The notes under the pieces: model-generated
The model's database searches: none
What the model saw: the letters and a program-made list of their open reading frames with translations, nothing else
Told to the model about the DNA's origin: nothing
Shown here: positions 9,850 to 58,357 of the stretch, piece by piece
Layout of the letters: each line of letters opens with the position of its first letter
How positions within the stretch are numbered: the first letter of the stretch is position 1
Assembly: GCA_023333565.1 (NCBI GenBank)
Contig: JAJKFH010001548.1
Coordinates: forward strand, 2,046,001 to 2,110,000
Direction of reading: 5' to 3'
DNA from: Puffinus mauretanicus
Lineage: Eukaryota > Chordata > Aves > Procellariiformes > Procellariidae
DNA: 64,000 nucleotides
Translations under genes and position numbers: made by a program

Positions 9850-10145
9850 GACTGGTCACTGCTGACCTCACGTGCTCAAAGCCCGGTACTGCAGCCTGCC
9901 GGCCGACGCACGCATGCGCAATGACGACTTATTTGGAGCAGTACTGCGCACGGCAGTACCACGCGCGCAGTGCAACCTGCCAGGTGCTCTGCTGCTGTGT
10001 CTTGATTGCAACGAAGGACTGCAGCCGCCGAGAGCACGCATGCGCAGTGTGGCCTGCCGCGCACTGCTGCCCTCGACTGAGTACACCGGGCACTGCCGCC
10101 GGCGGCGTGACGCATGCGCAGTACAGAGTGCCCGCACTGCGGCGC
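9850..10145 (+). repeat. Diverged NRF1-palindrome minisatellite
   Basis: Three CGCATGCGCA motifs (about 9911, 10037 and 10110) are interleaved with GTACTGCAGC or GGACTGCAGC segments. These two elements also define the ~79-bp monomer of the arrays at 15.6-16.0 and 42.8-44.6 kb. Here the spacing is irregular and the intervening sequence is strongly diverged, so this looks like an older relic of the same repeat family within a CpG island. Confidence 0.55.
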
Positions 10146-15619: not shown

Positions 15620-16012
15620 CTCGAGAGCGAATGCGCGTTGGCGCACCGCCCGTCCCCCGAACCGCCGTGCCGCGAAATGCAGCTCCCACGAGGCGCATGT
15701 GCGGTGGCTCTCCTACCGACGCTCGCTGCAGCTCGGGAACCGCGCATGCGCGGTGGCGCGCTTTGCCGCCCTCGCTGCTGCCACCTGGCGACCAGAGTTG
15801 GGTACTGCAACCCGGGACCCGCGCATGCGCAGAGGAGGGCTTTGCCGTGCTCGCTGCTGCCGTCAGGCGACCAGAATTCGGTACTGCAGCTAAGGAGCTG
15901 CGCATGCGCAGTGGCGCTCTTGCCGCGCTCCCTGCTGCCACCCGGCGACCAGAATTCGGTACTGCCGCTCTTGAGCTGCGCATGCGCAGTGACGCACTTT
16001 TCTTTCCTCATC
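15620..16012 (+). repeat. NRF1-palindrome ~79-bp minisatellite, short array
   Basis: Four monomers carry a perfect GCGCATGCGC at 15742, 15821, 15900 and 15978, at 78-79 bp spacing. Two diverged monomers lie upstream (about 15628 and 15697). Between the palindromes is the conserved CGCTGCTGCCACC ... CCAGAATTCGGTACTGCAG segment. It is the same family as the large array at 42.82-44.58 kb, and it stops within ten bases or so of the segmental-duplication boundary. Confidence 0.9.
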
Positions 16013-16022
16013 CCCCCCCCCG

Positions 16023-16465: not shown

Positions 16466-16965
16466 CACACGAGGGTCCTGCACAACTACTGCTGCCACAC
16501 GAGGGTTCTGCACAATCACCATCGTGGTACAGGGCTCCCTACACAACCACAACCATTGTACAGGGGTCCTGCACAATCACCACCATCGCATGAGGGTTCC
16601 CTGCACCCACTCCTCATTGCATGAGGGTCCCTGCCCCATCACCGCCATTGTACAAGGGTCCTGCACAGCCGTTACTGTCGCATAAGGGTCGCTGCACATC
16701 CACAACCATTGCATGGGGGTCCTACACAGCCACCACCATTGCACGAGGGTCCTGCACAATCACAACCATCGCACAAGGGTCCCCGTGCACCTGCCTGCCA
16801 TTGCACGAGGGTCCCCTGCACACCAAGCAATTGCGTAAGGGTCCTCCTGCACTGCCCCCCCCATCGCACGGGGGTCTCCACACACCGACCCTCCGTTGCG
16901 CAAGGATCCCTGCACAATCACCACCGTTGCACGGGGGTCCCTGTACAGCCAGCCGCACTGCACAA
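16466..16965 (+). repeat. ~30-bp VNTR, about 16 units
   Basis: Tandem units follow the pattern CAYGAGGGTCCTGCACAATC plus about ten bases ending ACCATTG, mostly 30-32 bp long. I count about 16 GGGTCC-type cores. The array abuts promoter a. The equivalent array in copy 2 has about eight units, so the locus has changed length since duplication. One more isolated unit lies before promoter b (17370-17410). Confidence 0.88.
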
Positions 16966-17100
16966 GTCGCCGTGCGCATGCGTACTTCCGGGGCGGGGAC
17001 TACAACTCCCGGCGTGCCCCCCGCGGGCGGCCCGGTGGAGCCGCACGCTGATTGGCTGCGGAGGATATTTCAACGGGGCGCGCGGCGGCGGCGGCGCTGC
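16966..17100 (+). promoter_or_regulatory. Promoter a, copy 1 (NRF1, Sp1, ZNF143, CCAAT)
   Basis: In order: an NRF1-type GTGCGCATGCGTA (about 16973), GGGGCGGGG (about 16989), a ZNF143/SBS-like ACTACAACTCCCGGCGTGCC (16999-17018), and an inverted CCAAT box (GATTGGCTG, about 17050). A GATATTTCAACGGGGCGCG segment and a short CGG run of about five units follow. This is the grammar of a TATA-less housekeeping or cell-cycle promoter firing to the right. It is paralogous to promoter b, 475 bp downstream. Confidence 0.75.
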
Positions 17101-17435: not shown

Positions 17436-17589
17436 CACGAGGCGCCGTGCGCATGCGCGCTGCCGGGGCGGGGACTACAACTCCCGGCGTGCCCCGCGCG
17501 GGCGGTCCGGTGGAGCCGCGCGCTGATTGGCTGCGGAGGGTATTTCAACGGGGCGCGCGGCGGGCTCTGCACCGAGGCGGCGGCGCAGC
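17436..17589 (+). promoter_or_regulatory. Promoter b and first exon end, copy 1
   Basis: This is a second copy of the promoter a cassette: NRF1 palindrome GTGCGCATGCGCGC (about 17447), GGGGCGGGG, ZNF143-like ACTACAACTCCCGGCGTGCC (17474-17493), inverted CCAAT (GATTGGCTG, about 17524), TATTTCAACGGGGCGCG and GGCGGCGGC. It ends at a strong splice donor, GCAGC|GTGAGT, with the intron starting at 17590. A first exon therefore probably ends at 17589. No convincing start codon is visible in it. The same cassette is at 47496-47649. Confidence 0.7.
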
Positions 17590-19245
17590 GTGAGTGTGAG
17601 GGGCCGCGGGCCCGGGGAGCCGAGGAGTGGGGCTGTGACGGGGGGGGCGGTCCTGGAGGCTCCGGGGACGGGGGCTGGGGGGGCTCCAGGCGGGGGAGGG
17701 GCTGTGAGCATCTGGGGGGGGTGGGGGGGGGGAGTGCTGCGTGCCCTAGGGGGGCCGCGCGGTGGGCCCGGGGGGAGGGGGGGTGCGCTGTGTGCAAACA
17801 GACGCTCCCTGCGAGTCCCAGCTGTCGCCCCGTGGGGCCGGGGACCCCCCAGCCCTCCCTGCAGGCAGACTGGGGGCTTCGCGGGCCGAGTCGAGGGAGG
17901 AGCTGCTGGAGAGAGGGCTTAGAAACGGCCTTCTGCCCCCGAAACTCCTGGAGCATTTGAAGGGGAGGGACAGGTCCGCCCCAGGGCCCCAAGGGGAAGA
18001 CCTCGGAGCAGGGACTTGGGGTTGTTCCAGGAGCAAAAGCTGGCCCCAGCCAGCTCGCCTCTGCTCCCCCGGCACCGGGATCAGACCTTTCAGCCCCGTT
18101 TCTGCCCGAAGCATCACACAAGCGCTTGCCCTCCCCGGGGGCATCTTTGGGACTTGAGAAGAGGCGCAGCAGCTGGGTTTTTGGGCTCAGAAATGGGTGC
18201 TAAGTGAGCTGGTTTGGGGGCCCAAAGCAGAAGCCGGTTTGGCCGTTTGTGCGGGGGGGTGGGAGGGCATTGGGGGCTGCAGGGGAAAGCAGGGGGTGGG
18301 CAGGGTGCGTGGACCCTCCCCAGGGGTGGGGGTCTGGTCCTGCTGGACCCCGAAGTGCGGGAGGCCGGCATGCACCAGACCAAACTCAACGTCTGAGGTG
18401 GTCTCTGGGGGGAAGAGGTGGTCCCTGCTTTTCAGACCCCGCACGCCTTCTTCGAGTCCAGCTCTTCCTTGTCGACTGCTTAGAATAGTTATTAACTAAT
18501 TAATCATACAAGCTAATTAATATTTATACAATGTACAACTATGATATTTAATCCTAATAGTCAAGTTTTGACGACGATTGGTTTACGACCTTGCCAAAAG
18601 CCCAGGCTGTTGCAAATAGCTGGAGCTTGTAAGGAGAAGGAGCTGAAATCAACGGGAGCTTCCATGTAGAGCTGGAGGTTCAATTAACCAGAACTGTAGC
18701 AAGCAGGAGCTCGAACGAGACAGGGTGTCCGCTGTCTGGGGCATGCCTTAGCCAGAGGCAAAATTACCAGCAGCTGTAACGAGCAGGAGCGGCGATTCGC
18801 TGCAGCGTCTGTTTGCTGGAGCATCCGTCGGCCAGGCTGCACTCCCAGCACGGCTGAAGAGCAGCCAGGCGCAGGCAGGGCTGTCCCCAGCGAGGAGCTC
18901 TGAGCGGCAGGGAGGCGAGTTGTCCTTTGGCCAGCGGGGAGCCCGGCCTCCTCCCTTGGGGATTAAATCCACGCCACGCGTGGATCCGCTCTCTTTGCGT
19001 GGAGGCTCTCTCCTGGTCCCGTTCCCGAGGGCTGAAGTGAGGTGGGGGTCCCCCGGCTCTCCCCGAGGGGCAGGCGGCAGCACGAGGCGGCGGTGTCTCC
19101 CCGGTACCCGGCAAAGGGGAGCGAAACTGGCTGGCTGGAGCTCCCGGGGTGCACAGCCCGGCCCCGCACGGCAGAATCCTTCCCTGGGTTTTACCGTTGG
19201 CTGGGTGTGACAAACAGGTTCATTTTGTGCCTCCTCTTTTCCCAG
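17590..19245. other. GC-rich putative intron 1, copy 1
   Basis: G-rich, CpG-island-like sequence continues for about 900 bp, then composition becomes more AT-rich. Multiple overlapping open frames on both strands reflect composition. No protein family is recognisable. Confidence 0.45.
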
Positions 19246-28957: not shown

Positions 28958-29088
28958 AAGATTGTAAATGTGTCTATATGTTAATGAAGGAGCAAGACGG
29001 AGGGGATCGCTTCTTCGGTGGTTTGGGCTCAAACCCTGGCAATATTTAAACGAAGGAGGGAATTTGGATAAGGAGGGGGAATAAGCGA

Positions 29089-29523: not shown

Positions 29524-29549
29524 AGCTCAATAATAGAGGGAGTTACGAA

Positions 29550-30998: not shown

Positions 30999-31724
30999 TG
31001 GGAACCGGGGGAATCTACCCTAGCAGATCCACTGGTTATAATGCAGCTAGGGAAGGAGCAAAAGAAAGTAGAATTTCTGGTTGACACAGGGGCAACGTAT
31101 TCGGTTTTGAATCAAGCCTTGATGCCCCTGGGAAGTGACTATATTATGGTAAAAGGGGCAACTGGCCAAAGTGAAAAGGCATATTTTTGTGAACCTCTGA
31201 GATATAAACTGGGAAAACAATGGGGCATCCACAAATTTCTGTACATGCCTAACTCCCCAAAAGCACTTCTGGGAAGGGATTTATTGGAACAATTGGGTGC
31301 AATAATTAAATTTGAAAAGGGAGAAATTACTCTGGAGGTAAATGACCAGCAGTATATCCAAATAATGAGTTTATCCCTAACTAGTGTTCCTACAGAAGGA
31401 AAAATCAGCGAAGAAATCATGAACCAGGTATATCCCGGGGTATGGGCCACCGATGTGCCCGGGAAAGCAAAGAATGCTTCACCTGTTGAGGTTAAGCTCA
31501 AAGACGGACGACAGCCGGTAAGAATCAAACAATATCCCCTAAGGAAGGAGGACAGGGAGGGAATTCGGCCAATAATAGAAAAATTTTTGCAACTGGGATT
31601 ATTAAAGGAATGTGAATCCGACTTTAACACTCCCATACTACCTGTCCGTAAACCCGACGGGTCATATCGGGTGGTCCAGGACCTACGGGCTATAAATAAG
31701 ATAACTGAGGATCTCTACCCCTAG
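30999..31724 (+). pseudogene. pol: ERV pro and RT N-terminus, internal 1, frame-broken
   Basis: This frame continues directly from gag after the UGA at 30996-30998, so synthesis would need stop-codon readthrough as in other gammaretroviruses; the first ATG is at 31041. The aspartic protease active site [11 protein letters not shown] lies about 15 codons after that ATG and a LLGRDLL motif about 80 codons on. The reverse transcriptase fingers follow ([20 protein letters not shown]). The frame ends at a TAG (31722-31724) caused by a net one-base loss relative to internal 3, where RT continues without interruption. The rest of pol follows in the -1 frame. Confidence 0.9.
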
Positions 31725-34546
31725 TGGCTAATCCATATACTCTGTTAACTGTATTAACGCCTGAGCTAACTTGGTTTACTGTTTTAGACCTGAAGGATGC
31801 CTTCTTTTGCCTCCCTCTCCATAAAGCCAGCCAGAAAATATTTGCATTCGAATGGGAAAACCCCAAAACCGGTCGCAAGACTCAACTCACCTGGACGGTG
31901 TTGCCACAAGGATTCAAAAATAGCCCTACCATTTTTGGCAATCAGCTTGCAAAGGACTTGGAATCATGGGAAATCCCGTCTGAAAAGGGAAAACTGCTAC
32001 AATACGTGGATGATATCCTGATTGCCACCGAAACAGAGAACGATTGTATCACCTGGACAGTGAGTCTATTAAATTTCTTGGGGCTCCAAGGGTACCGGGT
32101 GTCTAAGAAGAAAGCCCAAGTAATACAGCGCAAGGTGATTTATTTGGGCTATGAAATCAGTGCTGGACAAAGGACTTTGGGACAGGCCCGAAAAGAAACA
32201 ATATGCCAAACTCCGAGACCGCAAACGGTGAAGGAGTTACGAACTTTCCTGGGGATGACTGGGTGGTGCCGACTGTGGATCTACAACTATGGACTGCTTG
32301 TTAAACCCCTGTACGCACTAACAACCACTGAGCAGAAAACCCTTAAATGGAACAAAGAGACCATACGGGCCTTTGAGCTGTTAAAAAAGGCCCTGATGTC
32401 GGCCCCAGCCTTGGGACTCCCAGATGCAAGTAAGCCATTTTTCCTTTTTTCCCACGAGAAGCAGGGGATTGCCCTAGGAATATTAGCGCAAGATCTGGGC
32501 CCATATCGACGAGCAGTTGCCTACCTTTCCAAACAATTGGATGCAACTGCAAAGGGTTGGCCTGGATGCTTGCGAGCGATCGCGGCCGTAGTATTAAACA
32601 TCCAGGAAGCCCGAAAATTCACCCTGGGCCAGAAGATGACTGTGTTGGTGTCCCATACAGTATCTGCAGTACTAGAAGCGAAAGGTGGACACTGGCTTTC
32701 CCCACAAAGATTCTTGAAATACCAGGCTATAATGGTAGAACAAGATGATGTGGAGATTGTAGTCACTAACATTGTCAATCCAGCCTCTTTCCTCAGTAAA
32801 AACACAGGAGAACCAGTGCATCATGACTGTCTGGAAACCATAGAAGCAACATATTCGAGCCGTTCGGACCTGAGAGACAGTCCTATGGAAAACACGGAAA
32901 ACTGGTTCACGGATGGAAGCAGCTATGTCCTAAGTGGTAAAAGACATGCCGGATATGCCATTACCACCAGTCAGGAAGTAATAGAGTCAAGGCCTTTGCC
33001 TATGAATACCTCTGCACAGAAGGCAGAAATAATTGCTCTAACTCGCGCCTTGGAGTTGGCCCGAGGCAAAGCTGTGAATATCTATACAGACTCGAAATAT
33101 GCCTTTGGAGTTGTACATGCGCATGGAGCAATCTGGAAGGAGAGAGGATTATTGAACGCACAGGGTAGAAACATCAAACATGCAGAGGAGATCCTGAAAC
33201 TGTTAGAGGCAGTCCAACTCCCTGAGAAAGTGGCGATCATGCACATTAAAGCGCACCAGAAAGTGAATTCGGAGTTGGAAAGAGGAAATGAGCTGGCAGA
33301 CAGAGAGGCAAAACAGGCAGCCAAAGCAAAGGTAAAAACAGAAGGAGCTTTAGTCCCTGGCGGGCGAATCTCCCTAGAAGGTAAGCCAGAATATACAAAA
33401 GAAGATCAAAAGCTTATTACGGATTTAGAAGGGACATATAATAAAGAGGGGTGGGCTCTCACCCCACAAGGGAAACTAATCATTCCCTCCTATCTAACAT
33501 GGTCTCTGATAAGGGAGGAACATAAGAAGAGACATTGGGGGGCAGAAGCCTTATCTAAACACCTAATTAGAGAGATCGTAGCCAGAAATCTATACACCAC
33601 TGTGAGACAAGTAACTCAACAGTGCGATCTTTGCCTCCAGATTAATCCTAAGAATACCCCCAAACCAGAAATGGGCCAAATTGGGAAAGGCAATGGGCCT
33701 GGACAACAATGGCAGATCGACTTTTCAGAACTCCCAAGAAAAGGGGGGTATCGATATTTATTGGTGTTAACTGATACCTTTTCAGGTTGGCCAGAGGCAT
33801 TCCCTACCAGAACAGCCAAGGCTCGGGAGGTAACTAGAACTTTAATACAAGAAATAATACCACGTTTTGGGGTTCCAGCAACCATATCTTCTGACAGAGG
33901 ACCACATTTCATCTCCAAAGTAGTACAACAAATTAGCCGTTATTTGGGCATAGATTGGCAGCTTCATACCCCATATCGCCCTCAGTCAAGTGGCCAAGTA
34001 GAAAAAATGAACCACTTAATCAAACAGCAGATCGTGAAATTGGGACAGGAAACTAACTTGGCCTGGCCTCAGTCTCTTCCTTTGGCCCTTTTGCGCATAC
34101 GAACTAGGCCAAGAGCAAGAGAAGGACTGAGCCCTTTTGAAATCTTGTATGGACGACCCTATAGAATACAGAAAGGGATGTCTACACAAGTTGGGGATGA
34201 AATCATGACCTCCTATATGGTGGCATTAGGCAAACAACTCAGCAAAATTGAGAAGCATGTGGTTGGGACTCGAAGTAGGGGTTTGGATGGGCCTGTACAT
34301 AACATACAACCTGGAGACTATGTGTATATAAAGTCTCTTACAGAAAAGACTTTGGAGCCACAGTGGGAAGGACCATTCCAGGTACTCCTTACCTCCTTCA
34401 CGGCAATCAAGATTGAAGAACAGAGCGCCTGGATCCATCATACCAGAGTGAAAAAGGCCCCTCGGTCACTATGGAAATCAACGCCAACTGGGCCCCTAAA
34501 ATTACGCTTTCAACGAAAAATGGGTATTCATGGGTATTCATCATAG
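31724..34546 (+). pseudogene. pol: ERV RT-RNase H-integrase segment, internal 1
   Basis: 940 codons are open after the frame break. Using residue 1 = 31724: RT LDLKD (D22) and YVDD (94-97) are intact; RNase H has D397, E434 and D456 (TDGSS, AEIIAL, YTDSK) and D526; integrase has the HHCC zinc site (H600, H604, C634, C637) and the DDE triad D666, D724 and E760. A C-terminal GPF-type motif near 880 suggests a gammaretroviral integrase C-terminal domain. All catalytic residues are present, so the only visible lesion in pol is the break at about 31720. The end overlaps the start of the env remnant by 76 bases. Confidence 0.92.
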
Positions 34547-34623
34547 GTATAATAGGACTATGGGCAAGAACAGTGTATACGTGGGAAAGTAATACCTTTT
34601 TACAGCTCCATAATAATAGATAA
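34471..34623 (+). pseudogene. env: Env N-terminal remnant, internal 1
   Basis: A 50-codon frame starts with an ATG inside the pol end, the usual position and overlap for a gammaretroviral env start. It contains one hydrophobic stretch ([11 protein letters not shown]) that would fit the signal peptide. It stops at TAA (34621), and only about 60 bp remain before the LTR. Surface and transmembrane subunits are absent, so the element is env-less. The identical remnant occurs in internal 2. Confidence 0.6.
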
Positions 34624-34672
34624 AGAAACACTATGTTAAACCAAACATAGTAAAAGAATTTACTAACTCTTC

Positions 34673-34686
34673 AGAAAAGGGGGGAA
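34673..34686 (+). other. Polypurine tract before LTR 2
   Basis: AGAAAAGGGGGGAA lies directly upstream of the LTR start. It would prime plus-strand DNA synthesis. The same tract precedes LTR 3 (41606-41619). The flank before LTR 1 is host DNA and lacks it. Confidence 0.85.
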
Positions 34687-35222
34687 TGAAAGGGTGAACG
34701 AGAAGGGATGAGTGATTAAAGAATTGAAACTATGGGTGAAATAACTTAGTACATTAGTTGCAACATTTTTGTAAGGCTCAGCGGAGGAATCGCAACAACA
34801 GTTCCTGATAAGAACCAGGAGTTTGTTTGAAGCTAGTTGAAACCAACCCTGTGATTTGGGTAAAGGCCAAGGAACAACTGAGTCTGTGCAAAGACGGGGG
34901 TTATTAGCGGTGACGAAGAGGAACCACTAACCTTCATCCCCACGACCCCTGACGACCACCACCAGGAGGCAATGCGCAAGCGTAGATAGGAGGGGCTCAT
35001 GGAAATAGCGTCTTGAAGCTTATTTTAATACAAAGCGGGGATAGGTCATGCATATGTATAGGCGAATTATGTATATGCAACATTTCGCTGTATATATTTC
35101 TGGCAAGTACCGTGTTGCGGCGCGCACGACTTTGGTGGGGTTACCCCCCGTGCCGCCCAGCGCTGAATAAACATACCTACTTTACAATCTCACAGATTGT
35201 GGAGTCTGTTTTCCGCAAGTCA
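34687..35222 (+). repeat. ERV LTR 2 (central, shared)
   Basis: 536 bp, with a polypurine tract on its left and a primer-binding site on its right, so it serves as 3' LTR of internal 1 and 5' LTR of internal 2. Variable sites: C at position 13 and T at position 201. Confidence 0.95.
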
Positions 35223-35226
35223 GATT

Positions 35227-35244
35227 TGGCGAGCCAGCCAGGAG
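35227..35244 (+). other. Primer-binding site, internal 2
   Basis: The same 18-base tRNA-Arg-type site, four bases after LTR 2. Confidence 0.8.
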
Positions 35245-35735
35245 ATTTCTTTGCTTCACTGCGGGATCGGCTGAGGAGCGGACGCCCCTGGGCGCGCCCC
35301 GAGCACTTTCTCGGAGGGGACTCCACTACCAGCCGCTCACCCTGGGAGTAGATAAGAACCTCCTGAGCCCGCGGAAAGGAAAAGGTATGTTTTAGGAGAA
35401 GGGCCTGTAAGTCGTACGCGTGGCCGGGGCTGCTGGTAAATCGCGCAGAGACGTCTGGCGTGCAGCATAGTCCCCGTATGGTAGGAGGGTACCCTGCATG
35501 GTAATAGGGGATCCGCTGACCGATAGAGCGGCCGCTAGCGATCTTGGGAGTAGATCGAGTAGATCCGAGGTTTTGGCTGCATCCCAGTGTTGGGAACCAG
35601 GACGGACCTGCTGATGACTGGTATATAAGAAGCAGGAGAAGGGTAAGCGGACCTCCCCGCAATTGCGGTTGGGCTATTTTTATATTTGCAGCTGCTGGAG
35701 GGGAACAGCCAGAATATGAATTGTATACTTTATCT

Positions 35736-35891
35736 ATGAAACGCCCGGGTATTTTATGTTACAACCATTTGTGTGTCTGGGACGCAGCTGCGCTGTGGAG
35801 TGAGTGCAGAGTTTTGTTTTGTGATCTTTGCAAGGAGAGGCTGGCAATTATGTCTTTGTCTTTATGTGTGCGTAATGTATGGAAAGATTGA
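35736..35891 (+). CDS. Small Cys-containing leader ORF, internal 2
   Basis: The 51 codons are identical in sense to the frame at 28802. Small indels upstream (for example GGAGGGATAAC in internal 1 against GGAGGGGAAC here) remove a stop and extend the open frame back to an ATG at 35544, giving 115 codons. That extension is specific to this copy and probably incidental. Confidence 0.25.
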   Translation: MKRPGILCYNHLCVWDAAALWSECRVLFCDLCKERLAIMSLSLCVRNVWKD

Positions 35892-36021
35892 AAGATTGTA
35901 AATGTGTCTATATGTTAATGAAGGAGCAAGACGGAGGGGATCGCTTCTTCGGTGGTTTGGGCTCAAACCCTGGCAATATTTAAACGAAGGAGGGAATTTG
36001 GATAAGGAGGGGGAATAAGCG

Positions 36022-36456
36022 ATTGTATCTGGGAGGAGTATATGTAACTCCTGCGGGAAAAACAGTAACCCTAGATTGGGAACAGCCTGTAGACATTTTT
36101 AGGAACCCTTGTGTTGGTGGACTGAGGGGAGTGATTCCCTGTTTTGTATGCGACTTGTTCGTAAACAATACGACATTTGGCACCAGGCTTGGGTTTTGTT
36201 AAGGTGTAAATTCTGTAGGGAAAGATGGTATTGTATTTCCAGTAAACGGAGAGCGGAGTGTCCCAAGTGCCGTCTCAAGACTTCACAATTTCGTGATAGG
36301 GAAGAAGTCCAGCAAGAGCCTGAAATAGTGAAGTTTGTGTGTGGGAAAGGGAAATTAGTTCCGGAAATCTGGGAAGTGTCAGAAAGGGACTGGGAGAAAA
36401 CCGTAAAAAACTGTAAGAGGCGATTTGGGTGGAAACTCAAAGAAAGGCAAAAATAA
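36022..36456 (+). pseudogene. Pre-gag cysteine-rich ORF, internal 2, one-base deletion
   Basis: This equals the frame at 29089-29523 but lacks one G at about 36151 (TATGCGACTTG here, TATGCGGACTTG in internals 1 and 3). The loss falls right after the first CxxC pair. The region encoding the two later CxxC pairs stays open from an ATG at 36109 (115 codons). The frame is therefore broken only in this copy. Confidence 0.55.
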
Positions 36457-36482
36457 AGCTCAATAATAGAGGGAGTTACGAA

Positions 36483-37931
36483 ATGGGTAACACTCAAAGG
36501 GAAATCTTGAAGAAAAGCCCCTTAGGCTGTGTGCTTGCCCATTGGAAGGATATTGTTGGAACTGGAGGGACAGAAAGTAAAAAGACTCTCATTAAGTATT
36601 GTAACCAATGGTGGCCGTTGTATAAATTGGAAAGTGAGGCTAAATGGCCATTCAACGGATCTATAGATTACAATACTCTCTTACAATTGATGCTGTTTTT
36701 AAGGAGGGAAGGGAAGTGGGATGAAGTTTCATATGCAGATATGTTTTTCACCCTCCGAAATCATCCGGAGTGGCAAAGGGACTGCGGGATGGTGCTGCCG
36801 CAGGACCCTATGGTACTTGCACTTGAGCGAGAAAATAACAAAAAATCTGAAAGTAAATTGAGACGATGCTGTTCAGCATGCAGTATTGGGCACCGGTGTA
36901 TTAAAGTAAACAAAATCCATCAGGCACCGGAGCCAGACTTAACTGACCTGTTTAAGCCTCCCCCTCGACCACAGGAACGGGACTTGGATGAAGCTTCCAC
37001 TCCCCCGGATAGCCCAGTATCTTCCCGCACCAGAAAGAAATCTGTCCCAACAGCCTTGCAGGCACCCCTTCGAGAAGCAGTAGGACCCGAGGGTGGGACA
37101 ATTCTAATCAAGGTACCTTTTTCCACTACTGACTTAAGGGAATGGAAAAAAGTTGCAAAGGATTATAGGAGTGATCCGATAGGGGTAACCAAGCATTTTC
37201 AGTTTATAATAAAACAGCACAACCCTGATTGGAGGGACATACAACTGCTATTAGAATATATGACGGAAACAGAGAAGCAGTTGATTTTAAAAACAGCAGG
37301 AGATTTGGCTGAGGATCACTACAAAATCACAAGAGAGGATGTAAAGGAATTTTTCCCCCTCCAGGATCCAAAATGGGACCCAAATAGATCAGCAGATATA
37401 GAAAAACTACAAGGCTATCAAGAATGGATCTCAAGAGGAATGGAAAGGGCCATCCCCAAAACTATAAATTGGTCAGTTTTGTATGCAGTGAAACAGGGTC
37501 CCTCTGAGTCGCCATCCGAATTCCTGGATCGATTGAGAGATGCAATGCGCCGTAATACGCCACTGGACCCTGGGTCTGAAGTAGGGATACAACAGCTAGT
37601 TTCTTTGTTTCTAGGTCAGTCCACCGGGGACATTAGACGTAAGCTCCAGAAATTACGCACTACAGAAAGTAGGAATTTGGAAGTATTGTTGGATGAAGCG
37701 TGGAGAGTGTTTAGCAATAGAGAGGAGGGTTATAGGCAAGGGCAGAGGAGAATAATAGCGGCTGTTAGGGAAGAGGAAGAAAGGATACCTAGGCGGCTAG
37801 GCAAAGATCAGTGTGCGTTTTGCAAAAGATTTGGTCATTGGAAGAATGAATGTCCGGAGAAATGGAAAAGGCAGGAAAAGGAGTGGAATAATCAGAAGAG
37901 GAGGATAGTGGCCCATGTGAAAAAGGACTGA
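36483..37931 (+). CDS. gag: ERV Gag polyprotein, internal 2
   Basis: 482 codons with the same MGNTQ start, capsid and CCHC knuckle as internal 1. The only protein difference I noticed is Leu to Pro near the start of nucleocapsid (EERILRR against EERIPRR, codon at about 37789). It ends in UGA with the pol frame continuing in phase. It is intact. Confidence 0.93.
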   Translation: MGNTQREILKKSPLGCVLAHWKDIVGTGGTESKKTLIKYCNQWWPLYKLESEAKWPFNGSIDYNTLLQLMLFLRREGKWDEVSYADMFFTLRNHPEWQRDCGMVLPQDPMVLALERENNKKSESKLRRCCSACSIGHRCIKVNKIHQAPEPDLTDLFKPPPRPQERDLDEASTPPDSPVSSRTRKKSVPTALQAPLREAVGPEGGTILIKVPFSTTDLREWKKVAKDYRSDPIGVTKHFQFIIKQHNPDWRDIQLLLEYMTETEKQLILKTAGDLAEDHYKITREDVKEFFPLQDPKWDPNRSADIEKLQGYQEWISRGMERAIPKTINWSVLYAVKQGPSESPSEFLDRLRDAMRRNTPLDPGSEVGIQQLVSLFLGQSTGDIRRKLQKLRTTESRNLEVLLDEAWRVFSNREEGYRQGQRRIIAAVREEEERIPRRLGKDQCAFCKRFGHWKNECPEKWKRQEKEWNNQKRRIVAHVKKD

Positions 37932-38657
37932 TGGGAACCGGGGGAATCTACCCTAGCAGATCCACTGGTTATAATGCAGCTAGGGAAGGAGCAAAAGAAA
38001 GTAGAATTTCTGGTTGACACAGGGGCAACGTATTCGGTTTTGAATCAAGCCTTGATGCCCCTGGGAAGTGACTATATTATGGTAAAAGGGGCAACTGGCC
38101 AAAGTGAAAAGGCATATTTTTGTGAACCTCTGAGATATAAACTGGGAAAACAATGGGGCATCCACAAATTTCTGTACATGCCTAACTCCCCAAAAGCACT
38201 TCTGGGAAGGGATTTATTGGAACAATTGGGTGCAATAATTAAATTTGAAAAGGGAGAAATTACTCTGGAGGTAAATGACCAGCAGTATATCCAAATAATG
38301 AGTTTATCCCTAACTAGTGTTCCTACAGAAGGAAAAATCAGCGAAGAAATCATGAACCAGGTATATCCCGGGGTATGGGCCACCGATGTGCCCGGGAAAG
38401 CAAAGAATGCTTCACCTGTTGAGGTTAAGTTCAAAGACGGACGACAGCCGGTAAGAATCAAACAATATCCCCTAAGGAAGGAGGACAGGGAGGGAATTCG
38501 GCCAATAATAGAAAAATTTTTGCAACTGGGATTATTAAAGGAATGTGAATCCGACTTTAACACTCCCATACTACCTGTCCGTAAACCCGACGGGTCATAT
38601 CGGGTGGTCCAGGACCTACGGGCTATAAATAAGATAACTGAGGATCTCTACCCCTAG
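37932..38657 (+). pseudogene. pol: ERV pro and RT N-terminus, internal 2, frame-broken
   Basis: Same content and same terminal break as internal 1: DTGA protease active site, RT fingers, then TAG at 38655-38657. One protein difference from internal 1 is Leu to Phe (VEVKLKDG against VEVKFKDG, about 38430). The shared break shows internals 1 and 2 have a common parent for this segment. Confidence 0.9.
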
Positions 38658-41479
38658 TGGCTAATCCATATACTCTGTTAACTGTATTAACGCCTGAGCT
38701 AACTTGGTTTACTGTTTTAGACCTGAAGGATGCCTTCTTTTGCCTCCCTCTCCATAAAGCCAGCCAGAAAATATTTGCATTCGAATGGGAAAACCCCAAA
38801 ACCGGTCGCAAGACTCAACTCACCTGGACGGTGTTGCCACAAGGATTCAAAAATAGCCCTACCATTTTTGGCAATCAGCTTGCAAAGGACTTGGAATCAT
38901 GGGAAATCCCGTCTGAAAAGGGAAAACTGCTACAATACGTGGATGATATCCTGATTGCCACCGAAACAGAGAACGATTGTATCACCTGGACAGTGAGTCT
39001 ATTAAATTTCTTGGGGCTCCAAGGGTACCGGGTGTCTAAGAAGAAAGCCCAAGTAATACAGCGCAAGGTGATTTATTTGGGCTATGAAATCAGTGCTGGA
39101 CAAAGGACTTTGGGACAGGCCCGAAAAGAAACAATATGCCAAACTCCGAGACCGCAAACGGTGAAGGAGTTACGAACTTTCCTGGGGATGACTGGGTGGT
39201 GCCGACTGTGGATCTACAACTATGGACTGCTTGTTAAACCCCTGTACGCACTAACAACCACTGAGCAGAAAACCCTTAAATGGAACAAAGAGACCATACG
39301 GGCCTTTGAGCTGTTAAAAAAGGCCCTGATGTCGGCCCCAGCCTTGGGACTCCCAGATGCAAGTAAGCCATTTTTCCTTTTTTCCCACGAGAAGCAGGGG
39401 ATTGCCCTAGGAATATTAGCGCAAGATCTGGGCCCATATCGACGAGCAGTTGCCTACCTTTCCAAACAATTGGATGCAACTGCAAAGGGTTGGCCTGGAT
39501 GCTTGCGAGCGATCGCGGCCGTAGTATTAAACATCCAGGAAGCCCGAAAATTCACCCTGGGCCAGAAGATGACTGTGTTGGTGTCCCATACAGTATCTGC
39601 AGTACTAGAAGCGAAAGGTGGACACTGGCTTTCCCCACAAAGATTCTTGAAATACCAGGCTATAATGGTAGAACAAGATGATGTGGAGATTGTAGTCACT
39701 AACATTGTCAATCCAGCCTCTTTCCTCAGTAAAAACACAGGAGAACCAGTGCATCATGACTGTCTGGAAACCATAGAAGCAACATATTCGAGCCGTTCGG
39801 ACCTGAGAGACAGTCCTATGGAAAACACGGAAAACTGGTTCACGGATGGAAGCAGCTATGTCCTAAGTGGTAAAAGACATGCCGGATATGCCATTACCAC
39901 CAGTCAGGAAGTAATAGAGTCAAGGCCTTTGCCTATGAATACCTCTGCACAGAAGGCAGAAATAATTGCTCTAACTCGCGCCTTGGAGTTGGCCCGAGGC
40001 AAAGCTGTGAATATCTATACAGACTCGAAATATGCCTTTGGAGTTGTACATGCGCATGGAGCAATCTGGAAGGAGAGAGGATTATTGAACGCACAGGGTA
40101 GAAACATCAAACATGCAGAGGAGATCCTGAAACTGTTAGAGGCAGTCCAACTCCCTGAGAAAGTGGCGATCATGCACATTAAAGCGCACCAGAAAGTGAA
40201 TTCGGAGTTGGAAAGAGGAAATGAGCTGGCAGACAGAGAGGCAAAACAGGCAGCCAAAGCAAAGGTAAAAACAGAAGGAGCTTTAGTCCCTGGCGGGCGA
40301 ATCTCCCTAGAAGGTAAGCCAGAATATACAAAAGAAGATCAAAAGCTTATTACGGATTTAGAAGGGACATATAATAAAGAGGGGTGGGCTCTCACCCCAC
40401 AAGGGAAACTAATCATTCCCTCCTATCTAACATGGTCTCTGATAAGGGAGGAACATAAGAAGAGACATTGGGGGGCAGAAGCCTTATCTAAACACCTAAT
40501 TAGAGAGATCGTAGCCAGAAATCTATACACCACTGTGAGACAAGTAACTCAACAGTGCGATCTTTGCCTCCAGATTAATCCTAAGAATACCCCCAAACCA
40601 GAAATGGGCCAAATTGGGAAAGGCAATGGGCCTGGACAACAATGGCAGATCGACTTTTCAGAACTCCCAAGAAAAGGGGGGTATCGATATTTATTGGTGT
40701 TAACTGATACCTTTTCAGGTTGGCCAGAGGCATTCCCTACCAGAACAGCCAAGGCTCGGGAGGTAACTAGAACTTTAATACAAGAAATAATACCACGTTT
40801 TGGGGTTCCAGCAACCATATCTTCTGACAGAGGACCACATTTCATCTCCAAAGTAGTACAACAAATTAGCCGTTATTTGGGCATAGATTGGCAGCTTCAT
40901 ACCCCATATCGCCCTCAGTCAAGTGGCCAAGTAGAAAAAATGAACCACTTAATCAAACAGCAGATCGTGAAATTGGGACAGGAAACTAACTTGGCCTGGC
41001 CTCAGTCTCTTCCTTTGGCCCTTTTGCGCATACGAACTAGGCCAAGAGCAAGAGAAGGACTGAGCCCTTTTGAAATCTTGTATGGACGACCCTATAGAAT
41101 ACAGAAAGGGATGTCTACACAAGTTGGGGATGAAATCATGACCTCCTATATGGTGGCATTAGGCAAACAACTCAGCAAAATTGAGAAGCATGTGGTTGGG
41201 ACTCGAAGTAGGGGTTTGGATGGGCCTGTACATAACATACAACCTGGAGACTATGTGTATATAAAGTCTCTTACAGAAAAGACTTTGGAGCCACAGTGGG
41301 AAGGACCATTCCAGGTACTCCTTACCTCCTTCACGGCAATCAAGATTGAAGAACAGAGCGCCTGGATCCATCATACCAGAGTGAAAAAGGCCCCTCGGTC
41401 ACTATGGAAATCAACGCCAACTGGGCCCCTAAAATTACGCTTTCAACGAAAAATGGGTATTCATGGGTATTCATCATAG
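38657..41479 (+). pseudogene. pol: ERV RT-RNase H-integrase segment, internal 2
   Basis: 940 open codons, as far as I can see identical in protein sequence to the internal 1 segment, with YVDD, the RNase H DEDD residues, HHCC and the DDE triad all present. It is disconnected from protease by the upstream frame break. Confidence 0.92.
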
Positions 41480-41556
41480 GTATAATAGGACTATGGGCAA
41501 GAACAGTGTATACGTGGGAAAGTAATACCTTTTTACAGCTCCATAATAATAGATAA
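41404..41556 (+). pseudogene. env: Env N-terminal remnant, internal 2
   Basis: The 50-codon env start, overlapping the pol end and followed by about 60 bp to the LTR, as in internal 1. The shared deletion predates the tandem arrangement. Confidence 0.6.
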
Positions 41557-41619
41557 AGAAACACTATGTTAAACCAAACATAGTAAAAGAATTTACTAAC
41601 TCTTCAGAAAAGGGGGGAA

Positions 41620-42155
41620 TGAAAGGGTGAACGAGAAGGGATGAGTGATTAAAGAATTGAAACTATGGGTGAAATAACTTAGTACATTAGTTGCAACATT
41701 TTTGTAAGGCTCAGCGGAGGAATCGCAACAACAGTTCCTGATAAGAACCAGGAGTTTGTTTGAAGCTAGTTGAAACCAACCCTGTGATTTGGGTAAAGGC
41801 CAAGGAACAACTGAGTCTGCGCAAAGACGGGGGTTATTAGCGGTGACGAAGAGGAACCACTAACCTTCATCCCCACGACCCCTGACGACCACCACCAGGA
41901 GGCAATGCGCAAGCGTAGATAGGAGGGGCTCATGGAAATAGCGTCTTGAAGCTTATTTTAATACAAAGCGGGGATAGGTCATGCATATGTATAGGCGAAT
42001 TATGTATATGCAACATTTCGCTGTATATATTTCTGGCAAGTACCGTGTTGCGGCGCGCACGACTTTGGTGGGGTTACCCCCCGTGCCGCCCAGCGCTGAA
42101 TAAACATACCTACTTTACAATCTCACAGATTGTGGAGTCTGTTTTCCGCAAGTCA
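41620..42155 (+). repeat. ERV LTR 3 (3' outer)
   Basis: 536 bp, preceded by a polypurine tract and followed by host DNA beginning GGGTGGTAAG, whose first four bases duplicate the target site. Variable sites: C at position 13 and C at position 201. Confidence 0.95.
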
Positions 42156-42815
42156 GGGTGGTAAGTGACATTGTGCAGTGTCTCTCCTCCAAGTGACAAG
42201 CCCTGCGTGGCAAGCCTTGTGTGTGTGCAGGGTGAGGAGAGCAGAGTGCTGATAGCACAGAGGCGAGGAAAGGTGCAAACAGCACAACAAAGCCCCAGGA
42301 CCACCAGCGTATCGCTCGTTTGCAGATCAGCCACTGGCGCCGGGTCTGCTCAGAAGCGCGGTTTCCTGATGGACATAGCTGCCCCTCCCCTGCTTTCAGG
42401 GTGTCACCCGTGTGGCCTTGTTTTTTAAATCTCTCTCCAGCATCTGTTGAGTTGCTGCTGTCACTCCCAGAACCCCGATGCCACCTGCAGACCGAGACAG
42501 CGATCCCTGGGGCTTCCTCCGGGTTAGAAAGAAACCTGTTCCACAGGTTCCCCGTGCTGCTTCTCCTCCCCGGGCACTGGGCTGGGGGGCACGGGCAGAA
42601 ACAACCACGGGACTTTTAAAGCGGCCAAAGGGAAAGGACTGAAATGCGGGAGCTACCGGGTGCTTTTTGGTACAGAGGTGATGAAGATTCGTGCCCGGGC
42701 CGCGAGTGGGAAAAGGGCAGGGAAATCTAAGCCCAGTACTGCCAGTAAGCAGTTACCGTCTTTCGGTGGTACAAACTGGGCGGAGAGATGGGGAAAGGGC
42801 CGGTGAGGCGACGGT
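42156..42815. other. Non-coding host flank after the ERV
   Basis: This sequence was contiguous with position 27750 before ERV insertion. It is mixed GC with no recognisable gene. CpG content rises towards the array from about 42640. Confidence 0.45.
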
Positions 42816-44575
42816 GGCACCCGGCGGCCGGAATTGGGTACTGCAGCTCTTGAGCCGCGCATGCGCGGTGGCGCGCTTTTCTTTGCTCACTGCTGCCACC
42901 GAGCGGCCAAAACTCGGTACTGCAGCCCTCGAGCCGCGCATGCGCAGAGGCGCGCTCTTTCTTTGCTCGCTGCTGCCACCGAGCGACCAAAACTCGGTAC
43001 TGCAGCCCTCGAGCCGCGCATGCGCAGTGGCGCGCTTTTCTTTGCTCGCTGCTGCCACCGAGCGCACTCGGTACTGCAGCATGGCGCGCTTTTCTTTGCT
43101 CGCTGCTGCCACCGAGCGACCAGAATTCGGTACTGCAGCCCTCGAGCCGCGCATGCGCAGTGGCGCGCTTTTCTTTGCCACCGAGCGCGTACTGCAGCCC
43201 TCGAGCCGCGCATGCGCAGTGGCGCGCTTTCCTTTGACTGCTGCCACCGAGCTACCAAAGCTGGGTGCTGCAGGTCTTGAGCCGCGCATGCGCGGTGGCG
43301 CGTTTTTCTTTGCTCGCTGCTGCCACCGAGCGACTAAAATTTGGTACTGCAGCCCTCGAGCCGCGCATGCGCAGTGGCGCGCTTTTCTTTGCTCGCTGCT
43401 GCCACCGAGCGACCAGAATTCGGTACTACAGCTCTTGATCTGCGCATGCGCGGTCCGCGCTTTTCTTTGCTCGCTGCTGCCACCCAGCGACCAGAATTCG
43501 GTACTGCAGCCCTCGAGCCGCGCATGCGCGGTTGCGCGCTTTTCTTTGCTCGCTGCTGCCACCGAGCGACCAGAATTCGGTACTGCAGCCCTCGAGCCGC
43601 GCATGCGCGGTTGCGCGCTTTTCTTTGCTCGCTGCTGCCACCGAGCGACCAGAATTCGGTACTGAAGCTCCTGAGGCGCGCATGCGCAGTTGCGCGCTTT
43701 TCATTGCTCGCTGCTGCCACCGAGCGACCAAAACTGGGTACTGCAGCCCTCGAGCCGCGCATGCGCGGTGGCGCGCTTTTCTTTGCTCGCTGCTGCCACC
43801 GAGCGACTAAAATTTGGTACTGCAGCCCTTGATCTGCGCATGCGCGGTGGCGCGCTTTTCTTTGCTCGCTGCTGCCACCGAGCGACCAGAATTCGGTACT
43901 GAAGCTCCTGAGGCGCGCATGCGCGGTGGCGCGCTTTTCTTTGCTCGCTGCTTCCACTGTGCGACCAGAATTCGGTACTGCAGCTCTTGAGCCGCGCATG
44001 CGCAGTTGCGCGCTTTTCATTGCTCGCTGCTGCCACCGAGAGACCAAAACTCGGTACTGCAGCCCTCGAGCCGCGCATGCGCAATGGCGCGCTTTTCTTT
44101 GCTCGCTGCTGCCACCGAGCGACCAAGACTCGGTACTGCAGCTCTTGCGTCGCGCATGCGCGATAGCGCGCTTTTCTTTGCTCGCTGCTGCCACCGAGCG
44201 ACCAGAATTCGGTACTGCAGCCCTCGAGCTGCGCATGCGCAGTGGCGCGCTTTTCTTTGCGCGTTGATGCCACCGAGCGACCAAAACTGGGTACTGCAGC
44301 CCTCGAGCCGCGCATGCGCAGTGGCGCGCTTTTCTTTGCTCGCTGCTTCCACCGAGCGACCAGAATTCGGTACTGCAGCCCTCGAGCCGCGCATGCGCAG
44401 TGGCACGCTTTTCTTTGCGCGTTGATGCCACCGAGCGACCAAAGCTGGGTGCTGCAGGTCTTGAGCCGCGCATGCGCGGTGGCGCGTTTTTCTTTGCTCG
44501 CTGCTGCCACCGAGCGACTAAAATTCGGTACTGCAGCCCTTGAGCCGCGCATGCGCGGTGGCGCCCCCCTTCTCC
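42816..44575 (+). repeat. Large ~79-bp minisatellite with 22 NRF1 palindromes
   Basis: Tandem monomers of 78-80 bp; a few are shorter through internal deletions. Each has GCGCATGCGC, then a GTGGCGCGCTTTTCTTTG stretch, CTCGCTGCTGCCACCGAGCG, and a GAATTCGGTACTGCAG stretch. I count the perfect palindrome at 42857, 42936, 43016, 43149, 43208, 43284, 43363, 43442, 43520, 43599, 43678, 43757, 43836, 43915, 43994, 44073, 44152, 44231, 44310, 44389, 44468 and 44547. One monomer near 43080 has lost it. GCGCATGCGC is the core of the NRF1 (nuclear respiratory factor 1) consensus, so the block could bind many NRF1 dimers and behave as a CpG-rich regulatory array. Long open frames across it on both strands are a composition effect. 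Confidence 0.92.
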
Positions 44576-44990
44576 GCGCTGCCGTCCGCCGGTAACGGCA
44601 ATGCTGTACTGTGGTGCCTGCGGGGTGATGCCGCCGCGTTCATTGCTTCGTCCCGGTAAGGAAACGCCGCTGCCGCCCCACGTGCGCGCTGCCGGCGGGC
44701 GCTGGGCGCCCAAAGCGCGGACCTGCAGCGCCGCTGCCGCCCCCGGGCACGCGCCGCCCGGCGGCTGCTCGCTGCTGCTGCCGCCCCGTGGCCGAATCGC
44801 GGTACTGCAGCGCCGGCACCGCACAGGTGCGCAGCAGCGCCGCCGCCTTCGCTGCTGCCGCCGCGAAGCCGAAGCGTGGTCCTGCAGCCCGGCGTTCGTG
44901 CGCCGGCTCTGGCCCCTCCACGCGCCGTCCCCATCCCGGTGCATCCCTCATCCCGGTGCATTCGTCTTCCCGGGCGGCAACGGTTAGGGT
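44576..44990. promoter_or_regulatory. CpG island with decayed array monomers
   Basis: Very CpG-rich sequence in which fragments of the monomer (GGTACTGCAGCGCCGG, CGCTGCTGCCGCC, GTCCTGCAGCCCGGCG) recur with strong divergence and without the full NRF1 palindrome. It looks like the degraded edge of the array merging into a promoter-like island. Confidence 0.5.
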
Positions 44991-46077
44991 GCCCCCCCCC
45001 ACATGCCAGCACCCCCAAGAGTGTCGGCGTGTCCCGGTGCTGTCCCCATCCCTGGGGCAACTCCCCATCCCCTGTCCCTGCGGCTGGTGGTTGGGCTCTG
45101 TGTTCCCCCAATAAAACACAGGGACGGAGGGCACCCCTGGGGACAGGGGGCGGGGACCCCCAGAGAGTGGGCTGTCCTGCCATCGCTCCTTGCTGCTTGT
45201 CCCCTGACCCCCCAGCGGTGATGAGCTCCGGGCCACTGGCAGGGACCCTCACTGTCACCTTCCCCCCATGCCGGTTGCCACCAGCGACAGGGACAGCGAT
45301 GCCCCCCCCCTGCCACGTACAGGGGTGTGCAGGGGCACAGGCCACCCCCGTCAGGTGGACACGCTGGGGACACCGTCTGCCCCAGGGGTGTTTGGGAGCT
45401 GCAGGATGCCAGGTCTCCCCTGCTCAAGCCCTGCAGACCCAGGTGGAGCGCAGGCATCCCCCAGCCCTGTCTCTGCGTGGCCGTGGGTCGCTGCTGCCAT
45501 TGCGTGGCCAGCGGCTGCAAGGACACGGCTCCCGCCGGCTGGGGCCAGAGGAGCCCGGCAGCCTGGAGACCCCTGGGAAGGGCTGGCTGTGGTGGGGACT
45601 CGGCACCCAGGGCCCAGGGCACCCCAGAGACCCGACAACAGGGTGCAGCATGAACTATTTTATTATCTGTGCAATATCCATGAGTGAGTCCCCATCGTTC
45701 CCATCCTGGTCCCCCAGTGGGTTGGGGTCCCAGCTGCCCCTGGGGGTGGCTGCAGGTGTGGGGGGTGGGATCCCTTCTCCCCAGAGTGCCCCCCACCTCC
45801 CCAGGGTCATCCCTCCCAGTCTCAACCCCCCACATGGTGTCCCCAATCTCCTGAGAAACACCTCTGTCCCCAAATGTCCCCCTACCCCACTCCCAGGGTC
45901 CCTCTCGGACCCCAGGATTCCCCCCCGCCCCATCCCGAGGCCCCCCCCCATCCCCACAGTCACCCCCAGCCCTGAGACACACACACACCCCACCTCCTCT
46001 CAGCACGGCAGGTGCCTGGGGAGGTGCTGGGAAGAGCCGGCACCGCCATCTCGGGGTCCCGCTGACCCTCATCCCCC
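44991..46077. other. C-rich region with possible transcript ends
   Basis: C-rich, minisatellite-like DNA. A plus-strand AATAAA lies at 45110-45115. A minus-strand AATAAA lies at 45659-45664, next to the end of a minus open frame (see the separate entry). No protein family is recognised. The block ends at the join to duplication copy 2. Confidence 0.4.
45655..45749 (-). other. Possible minus-strand terminal exon with very short 3' UTR
   Basis: On the minus strand a CTGCAG acceptor candidate (45750-45755) leads into about 29 open codons ending in an acidic, non-repetitive C-terminus (GDQDGNDGDSLMDIAQIIK) and a TAG at 45655-45657. An AATAAA overlaps the last codons, and the following sequence is GT-rich, as expected after a cleavage site. 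The protein is not recognised and no upstream exon was identified. It may be chance. Confidence 0.25.
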
Positions 46078-46503
46078 CTAAAGTCTTGCACCATGCTCTG
46101 CTCCTTGGGGGGAGTGCCCACAGTCAGGGTGGGTGGGGGCTCCCCTCCTCCCCAGGGAACCCCCCCAACCTGTCCAGGGCACCCTCTGCCACCTCCCCAG
46201 CATCCGATCACCGTACCAGGGTCTGACCCTGGGATCCCACTGGTTAACGTCAGGTGCGAGAGAAGGTTCCTCATTACTCCTTGATTAGTTCTTAGGTGCC
46301 AGCTCGATCTGGGTGCCTCCAGAGAGGGACCCCTACCCCGGATCGCCCTCCTTGCACACCTGCACCCATTGCAGGAGGGTCCACACACACCATGGGAGCC
46401 ACGTGAGAACCAGAGGGGGCCTCGAGCCTGCCCAGCAGCAGTCAAAACACCCCAGTGGTTTCAGACACTGGCTGTTTTGCTCCTGAACCCAAGAGAAAAA
46501 TAA
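46078..46503. other. Non-coding start of duplicated unit, copy 2
   Basis: Counterpart of 16023-16465. No gene is recognised. A 24-base-scale loss near 46470-46500 shortens the approach to the VNTR relative to copy 1. Confidence 0.45.
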
Positions 46504-46745
46504 CCACCACTGTCACACGAGGGTCCTGCACAATCACCACCATCGCACAAGGGTCCCCGTGCACCTGCCCGCCATTGCATGAGGGTCCCCTGCACACCAA
46601 CCAATTGCATAAGGGTCTTCCTGCACTGCCCCCCCATTGTACGGGGGTCTCCACACACCGACCCCCTGTTGCGCAAGGGTCCCTGCGCAATCACCACCGT
46701 TGCACGGGGGTCCCTGCACAGCCTGCACGGGGGTCCCTGCACCGC
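46504..46745 (+). repeat. ~30-bp VNTR, about 8 units
   Basis: Same unit as 16466-16965 but with only about eight GGGTCC cores. It abuts promoter a of copy 2. The last two units are near-identical (CACGGGGGTCCCTGCAC twice). Confidence 0.88.
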
Positions 46746-46884
46746 AAAAGGCGCCGTGCGCATGCGCACTTCCGGGGCGGGGACTACAACTCCCGGCGTG
46801 CCCCCCTAAGGCGGCCCGGAGGAGCCGCGCGCTGATTGGCTGCGGAGGATATTTCAACAGGGCGCGCGGCGGGGTCTGCACCCA
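46746..46884 (+). promoter_or_regulatory. Promoter a, copy 2
   Basis: The same cassette as 16966-17100: NRF1 palindrome GTGCGCATGCGCAC (about 46756), GGGGCGGGG, ZNF143-like ACTACAACTCCCGGCGTGCC (46783-46802), inverted CCAAT (about 46834) and ATATTTCAACAGGGCGCG. The NRF1 site is a better palindrome here than in copy 1. It runs directly into a long GGC repeat. Confidence 0.75.
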
Positions 46885-47495
<611 letters not shown>

Positions 47496-47649
47496 CACGA
47501 GGCGCCGTGCGCATGCGCGCTGCCGGGGCGGGGACTACAACTCCCGGCGTGCCCCGCGCGGGCGGTCCGGTGGAGCCGCGCGCTGATTGGCTGCGGAGGG
47601 TATTTCAACGGGGCGCGCGGCGGGCTCTGCACCGAGGCGGCGGCGCAGC
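47496..47649 (+). promoter_or_regulatory. Promoter b and first exon end, copy 2
   Basis: Identical in layout to 17436-17589, with the ZNF143-like motif at 47534-47553 and the splice donor GCAGC|GTGAGT at 47649/47650. I see no base changes in the core elements relative to copy 1. Confidence 0.7.
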
Positions 47650-57799: not shown

Positions 57800-58335
57800 T
57801 GAAAGGGTGAATGAGAAGGGATGAGTGATTAAAGAATTGAAACTATGGGTGAAATAACTTAGTACATTAGTTGCAACATTTTTGTAAGGCTCAGCGGAGG
57901 AATCGCAACAACAGTTCCTGATAAGAACCAGGAGTTTGTTTGAAGCTAGTTGAAACCAACCCTGTGATTTGGGTAAAGGCCAAGGAACAACTGAGTCTGC
58001 GCAAAGACGGGGGTTATTAGCGGTGACGAAGAGGAACCACTAACCTTCATCCCCACGACCCCTGACGACCACCACCAGGAGGCAATGCGCAAGCGTAGAT
58101 AGGAGGGGCTCATGGAAATAGCGTCTTGAAGCTTATTTTAATACAAAGCGGGGATAGGTCATGCATATGTATAGGCGAATTATGTATATGCAACATTTCG
58201 CTGTATATATTTCTGGCAAGTACCGTGTTGCGGCGCGCACGACTTTGGTGGGGTTACCCCCCGTGCCGCCCAGCGCTGAATAAACATACCTACTTTACAA
58301 TCTCACAGATTGTGGAGTCTGTTTTCCGCAAGTCA
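57800..58335 (+). repeat. ERV LTR 4 (5' outer, copy 2)
   Basis: 536 bp. Variable sites: T at position 13, as in LTR 1, and C at position 201, as in LTR 3. Confidence 0.95.
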
Positions 58336-58339
58336 GATT

Positions 58340-58357
58340 TGGCGAGCCAGCCAGGAG
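58340..58357 (+). other. Primer-binding site, internal 3
   Basis: The same 18-base tRNA-Arg-type site, four bases after LTR 4. Confidence 0.8.

Follow-up and report, generated by a model that had tools for sequence, protein, structure and literature searches.

What keeps 22 copies of one exact 10-bp palindrome in a 79-bp minisatellite of Puffinus mauretanicus, and what might such an array do? The locus lies in a 64,000-nucleotide stretch of contig JAJKFH010001548.1 (assembly GCA_023333565.1, positions 2,046,001 to 2,110,000), the whole of which we call the window. The array belongs to a genome-wide family that lies at contig ends, runs in one direction and is linked to a promoter-like module downstream; an earlier, sequence-only reading of the locus had missed this, along with a second conserved block in the monomer.

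Palindrome conservation within the 79-bp monomer

The palindrome GCGCATGCGC occurs exactly 29 times in the window, against a mean of 0.03 and a largest count of 1 in dinucleotide shuffles of the same DNA, and 22 of these copies lie inside the main array (Table 1). The sequence-only reading had described 22 palindromes at 78-80 bp spacing: all 22 are exact, and the spacing holds in 18 of 21 intervals but not in the other three (133, 59 and 76 bp), the 133-base interval containing an extra monomer with an internal deletion and no palindrome. Decayed palindromes adjoin the sister array (GCGAATGCGC at 15627 and GCGCATGTGC at 15693), a diverged monomer without a palindrome lies at 44801-44866, and single palindromes, one of them decayed, are embedded in promoter-like sequence. 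The CpG island that houses the very diverged monomer relatives also carries ETS- and CRE-like words, and its similarity to the array monomers is weak. A coding minisatellite was considered and rejected: 79 bp is not a whole number of codons, and several frames on both strands contain long open reading frames.

Table 1. Features of the 79-bp arrays, their flanks and the promoter-like modules, in window coordinates
Feature	Positions	Strand	Details
Very diverged monomer relatives	9884..10125	+	in another CpG island (9151-10600), three ACGCATGCGC copies
Sister array, proximal unit	15676..16022	+	four intact palindromes at 15742, 15821, 15900, 15978
P2-type module, proximal unit	16960..17100	+	palindrome decayed to GCGCATGCGT (16974), SBS-like 16999-17017
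P1-type module, proximal unit	17440..17600	+	palindrome 17449, SBS-like 17474-17492, GTGAGT donor-like ~17590
Upstream flank	42157..42833	+	matched in 18/20 other array loci
Main 79-bp array	42834..44564	+	22 intact GCGCATGCGC at 42857-44556 and one deletion monomer
Downstream flank	44565..46500	+	44600-45130 array-like, rest like methylated DNA
Promoter-like module P2	46740..46880	+	palindrome 46758, CCGGAAG/GGGGCGGGG, ZNF143(SBS)-like 46783-46801, GATTGG 46834
Promoter-like module P1	47500..47660	+	palindrome 47509, GGGGCGGGG, SBS-like 47534-47552, GATTGG 47585, GTGAGT donor-like ~47650

The identification of the palindrome as an NRF1 dimer site agrees with published structural work: the same 10-mer is the sequence of an NRF1 dimer crystal, bound by the homodimer, and base changes within it are reported to weaken NRF1 binding, for example fourfold for ACGCATGCGC (PMC10810270). 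In the window, where monomer copies were anchored on the palindrome (the main array contains no one-mismatch version of it), none of the 220 palindrome cells of the main array is changed, compared with 107 of 1437 cells elsewhere; with the sister array at 15726-16009 included, the counts are 0 of 260 and 158 of 1678. Left out here are the monomer with the deletion and the truncated portions of m04, m05, m22, s1 and s4. All 10 palindrome columns of the main array are invariant, as are 32 of the 69 others (hypergeometric P 0.001), and the number of other invariant columns falls to 21 of 69 when both arrays are combined (P 3e-5). The sister array taken alone is less informative, since another 10-column run in it is likewise invariant. 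In all 26 window copies the palindrome is flanked by Y on one side and R on the other, a combination that the NRF1 consensus permits and that CpG decay would also yield.

The same pattern extends across the family. An HMM-extracted set from the window and 20 further loci (L009-L028) comprised 464 monomer hits, 428 of them with at least 70 aligned positions, and most of these units (363 of 428, from 21 loci) retain the exact NRF1 dimer site. Variation amounts to 1.7% of palindrome cells (72 of 4267) versus 10.4% elsewhere (2745 of 26322, not counting columns 1-3 and 76-79 at the edges). The palindrome is the least variable 10-column window, 58 of 200000 random column sets being as low, and it varies less than the rest of the monomer in 19 of the 19 loci with at least 10 monomers. 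When a single monomer is drawn per locus, the palindrome falls below the rest in 2000 of 2000 draws but is the best or tied window in only 921, because a second block, columns 52-67 (GCTCGCTGCTGCCACC), is nearly as conserved (2.3% variation); in L012, L015 and L024 this block varies less than the palindrome itself. A weaker third block occupies columns 4-13 (GGTACTGCAG; 3.1%). The earlier claim that the palindrome is among the best-conserved parts of the monomer therefore holds at per-position resolution, and the outcome of a palindrome no better conserved than its surroundings is contradicted. Since columns 52-67 are also conserved, at least one further constraint must act on the monomer, and NRF1 is not the sole one.

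A multicopy family near contig ends

A search of the assembly to which the window belongs (1.212 Gb in 2370 contigs) with 1376 bases of the array returned at least 65 array matches on at least 32 contigs, with 40 of 48 candidates scored. This genome-wide count identifies a multicopy family. Palindrome pairs 60-85 bases apart number 521 genome-wide versus 0 for a reversed control pattern, at least 13 of those listed being other repeats or isolated pairs. Arrays contain 4-31 palindromes across loci, some being cut by contig ends, and the loci are related by duplication, so that locus counts are not independent. Among the open-access titles and abstract starts listed by our literature searches, none concerned an avian NRF1-site satellite.

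On seven other contigs, array clusters follow one another at intervals of about 8.5-17.6 kb, and those of the window are 27 kb apart with a 14.4-kb retroviral insertion in between. This endogenous retrovirus occupies 27751-42156, in tandem form between the two units, and 57800-64000, where the second-unit copy extends to the window end. The tandem form has three LTRs (27751, 34687, 41620) and two internal regions. Its gag frame matches bird proteins with Gag_p30 (the organism-named matches listed are all from birds except one labelled Klebsiella), and the retrovirus is bordered by bases that fit a 4-bp GGGT target duplication.

The window's contig ends 34 bases past the window, and proximity to an end is a family trait. 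Direction, taken as read on the window's plus strand, was scored at one place per contig for all 32 contigs listed, none of which was of mixed strand. The array points at the nearer contig end in 30 of the 32; both exceptions are short contigs, one of which (C1688) has a telomere-side ETS module toward its far end. On contigs longer than 200 kb, 16 of 16 arrays lie within 100 kb of the end they point at, where random placement and direction would give 2.3. Even with non-independent loci, contig breaks at repeats would not produce a single direction.

The pointed-at ends were seen for 14 of the 16 large contigs. Five carry degenerate telomere repeats (clear on C348, C300 and C1181, weaker on C840, and over 60 bases only on C406), on the strand expected for a chromosome end, and on these five contigs 37-72 kb separate the arrays from that end. 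Nine have none, which may reflect assembly breaks. The opposite ends sampled, 60 bases each of C331 and C783, are not telomeric, and no two adjacent telomere hexamers occur within the window. Together, the uniform end position and direction and the telomere repeats at 5 of 14 ends suggest that the array family is probably subtelomeric and telomere-directed. At some contig ends, CCGGAAGT-type (ETS-like) repeats adjoin degenerate telomere repeats (L039:1-110 and L035:300-600), with a 41-bp period in L039, and several other contigs have the L039 module at, or close to, an end.

Flanks, promoter-like modules and CpG preservation

The arrays share their surroundings. The upstream flank is 79-95% identical to that of the window in 17 of the 18 matching loci, and only 70% identical over 357 bp in L027. 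A junction of the 30-kb duplication inside the main array was rejected, as the main array has the usual family flanks on both sides and it is the proximal sister array that is rearranged. Between array and modules, both window units contain a 30-bp minisatellite of CACAAGGGTCCTGCACAA type (16498-16966 and 46516-46663) that differs in length between them. Upstream of the sister array, at 15296-15430, the minus strand carries three ZNF143/SBS-like motifs.

The downstream modules P1 and P2 consist of words that we take to be NRF1-, SP1-, ZNF143/SBS- and CCAAT-like, arranged in P1 in the order palindrome, GGGGCGGGG, ACTACAACTCCCGGCGTGC (SBS-like), GATTGG and GTGAGT. Seven SBS-like matches occur in the window versus 0.12 expected. 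Of 30 module copies, 29 keep the SBS-like word, 29 GATTGG, 18 GGGGCGGGG, 15 the single palindrome and 14 the donor word. A promoter-like module lies 1.4-3.3 kb downstream on the same strand in 19 of the 40 array clusters listed, on 16 contigs; of the 14 loci whose retrieved sequence extends 3 kb or more past the array, 12 have it at about 2-3.4 kb, with no match in L019 and L027. Searching the genome with the P1 module returned at least 42 matches on at least 28 contigs (40 of 149 candidates scored). P2 is closely followed by a perfect (GGC)33 tract (46885-46984), which the proximal unit lacks at the corresponding position. CTCF-core, BANP- and YY1-type words are absent from the window.

The downstream region appears non-coding. 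In comparison with L043 and L044, none of the open reading frames of 70 aa or more at 17295-24505 resembled a coding sequence: almost every comparison showed more non-synonymous than synonymous differences, and many contained frameshifts or stops. Rfam gave no match at gathering thresholds, and Pfam searches in six frames of 1-15700 and 17600-27500 (minus strand 4001-5799 excepted) recovered a reverse transcriptase piece of CR1 type only.

On contig C38, three more distal units contain 5, 7 and 8 palindromes within P1, 26-29 bp apart (one interval is 34), which directly abut the GGGGCGGGG/SBS/GATTGG part; the window has a single palindrome at this place. The site has thus been amplified twice, with different repeat units, in the same kind of unit. 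A 50-bp tandem repeat also lies directly upstream of P1 in these three C38 units (L065:1-497, L066:1-320 and L067:1-444, reverse complement).

CpG content separates the arrays from most of their flanks. The median observed/expected CpG ratio is 1.22 in arrays and 0.57 in the 700 bp upstream (21 loci each), and 0.335 at 600-1600 bp downstream (16 of 21 loci). Upstream values are near 1 at L018 and L019, both of which are without the usual flank, and the lowest array value is 0.90 (L027). Transitions at consensus CpG relative to those at other C/G give a ratio of 1.6 for the 428 monomers, 2.0 without the palindrome columns and 0.43 for the palindrome. The corresponding flank ratios are 6.1 upstream (18 rows), 2.2 for 44600-45130 (15 rows), 8.6 for 45131-46072 (13 rows) and 9.5 for 46073-46500 (12 rows). 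Low ratios in the arrays and high ones in three of four flank segments suggest germline hypomethylation: the arrays and the first half kilobase downstream look germline-unmethylated, and the next stretch does not. The suggestion of a CpG-rich element gains substance, the array being an island that has kept its CpGs and whose mutations point to hypomethylation in the germline. The mutation pattern speaks against the opposite case, a fully methylated array, in germ cells.

Candidate explanations and known NRF1-site systems

Our preferred reading, to which we give about an even chance, is that NRF1 would bind the array, which would be unmethylated in the germline and serve as the upstream element of a telomere-directed, subtelomeric transcription unit that is apparently non-coding. 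Several observations weigh against it: columns 52-67 are almost as conserved as the palindrome, the module's single NRF1 site is intact in only 15 of 30 copies, nine of the 14 pointed-at ends are free of telomere repeats, and L019 and L027 have no promoter-like module. Binding of NRF1 is reported to be inhibited by methylation (PMC6600276), and NRF1 dimers would occupy the palindromes wherever the DNA is unmethylated. Bound NRF1 may in turn keep the CpG island open in the germline and help P2 and P1, 1.4-3.3 kb downstream, to produce an apparently non-coding transcript that runs toward the telomere. Arrays would lengthen and shorten by tandem duplication and unequal exchange, which germ-cell occupancy by NRF1 may promote.

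That last step could also operate without any benefit to the host locus. In human spermatogonia, NRF1 sites are reported as structural-variant hotspots at which short insertions duplicate the motif (PMC8559717), and NRF1-bound sites in the bird's germ cells might likewise break and duplicate in tandem, low variation then reflecting protection from methylation plus homogenisation rather than usefulness. The presence of two different NRF1-site arrays within one kind of unit fits such mutational drive, as does the spread of array lengths among loci, some of them cut by contig ends. However, drive of this kind predicts unconstrained columns 52-67, which are conserved, and the near-complete retention of the SBS-like and GATTGG words among module copies suggests a working promoter nearby; we regard drive without benefit as unlikely. 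Slightly more unlikely, in our view, is an ordinary GC-rich minisatellite carried along by subtelomeric duplication, its palindrome kept by gene conversion or another factor and NRF1 inactive here. GC-rich minisatellites are common near chromosome ends, flanks and array travel together in this family, and the second conserved block indicates that the palindrome is not special by itself. Against this stand the invariant block of the main array, which stops exactly at the 10-bp NRF1 site, the low CpG decay in arrays and high decay in most flank segments, and the amplification of the same 10 bases by an unrelated 26-29-bp unit.

Two further alternatives assign the palindrome other functions. Its perfect purine-pyrimidine alternation could be kept for DNA shape (Z-DNA or a hairpin), as a breakage or recombination element, and two monomers do fold a little better than their shuffled versions (z -2.1, with 9 of 200 of these folding as well). 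This fold signal is weak, though, and other alternating tracts would be equally suitable, yet the exact 10-mer is kept, making this account highly improbable. The most improbable of all, we think, is an NRF1 sink or decoy that titrates the factor, a role proposed among others in the sequence-only reading: the 521 palindrome pairs, a few of which belong to other repeats, speak for it, but some hundreds of sites would compete with thousands of ordinary NRF1 sites, and the linked promoter-like module would be left unexplained.

The nearest analogue of the bird array is the human promoter of telomere RNA (TERRA), built of 61-29-37 bp repeats with two putative NRF1 sites per 29-bp unit and reported to depend for its activity on NRF1 and the unmethylated state (PMC6600276). 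Both systems combine tandem sites for the same factor (predicted in the bird), a CpG-rich repeat tract near chromosome ends and telomere direction, and by this analogy the bird array may work like a TERRA promoter. Human TERRA promoters lie within a few kb of the telomere tract, whereas the bird arrays stand tens of kb from the five telomere-like ends; the bird units are 79 bp (and 26-29 bp) long with exact dimer palindromes; and a separate promoter-like module intervenes downstream of the array. In view of its distance from the telomere and its repeat unit, we do not file the array as a TERRA promoter. That the arrays are themselves direct TERRA promoters, like the human 29-bp repeats, is very unlikely given this distance, the intervening module and the different, ETS-like repeat that adjoins the telomere repeats.

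Two other systems bear comparison. Homotypic NRF1-site clusters in human spermatogonia likewise contain repeated sites, whose multiplication is ascribed to tandem duplication where NRF1 is bound in the germline, but they arise from 5-20 bp insertions and form local clusters (PMC8559717), whereas the bird sites form arrays of dozens in a duplicated subtelomeric unit. By analogy, motif-duplicating insertions at germline NRF1 sites are a plausible source of both bird arrays. The PO41 repeat of chicken and quail is also avian, subtelomeric and tandem, and is reported to be transcribed; it differs in its 41-bp unit, compared with 79 bp here, and the available part of its description makes no mention of NRF1 (PMC4301066).

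Taken further, and only tentatively, bird chromosome ends may possess a methylation-sensing, NRF1-addressed transcription system with an origin separate from that of the human TERRA promoter. In this rather doubtful extension of our preferred reading, a single kind of subtelomeric unit would have seen two or more amplifications of NRF1 sites (79 bp upstream, 26-29 bp at the promoter) as germline occupancy both shields them from methylation and breeds copies, yielding a self-expanding regulatory satellite. If NRF1 does bind, bird and human subtelomeres have converged on tandem NRF1 sites, a CpG island and telomere direction by way of unrelated repeats. Birds would then be a second vertebrate lineage in which energy signalling and DNA methylation are tied to transcription at chromosome ends, and with hundreds of like sites in one genome, the idea that occupancy by a germ-cell factor drives tandem duplication of its own sites becomes directly testable.
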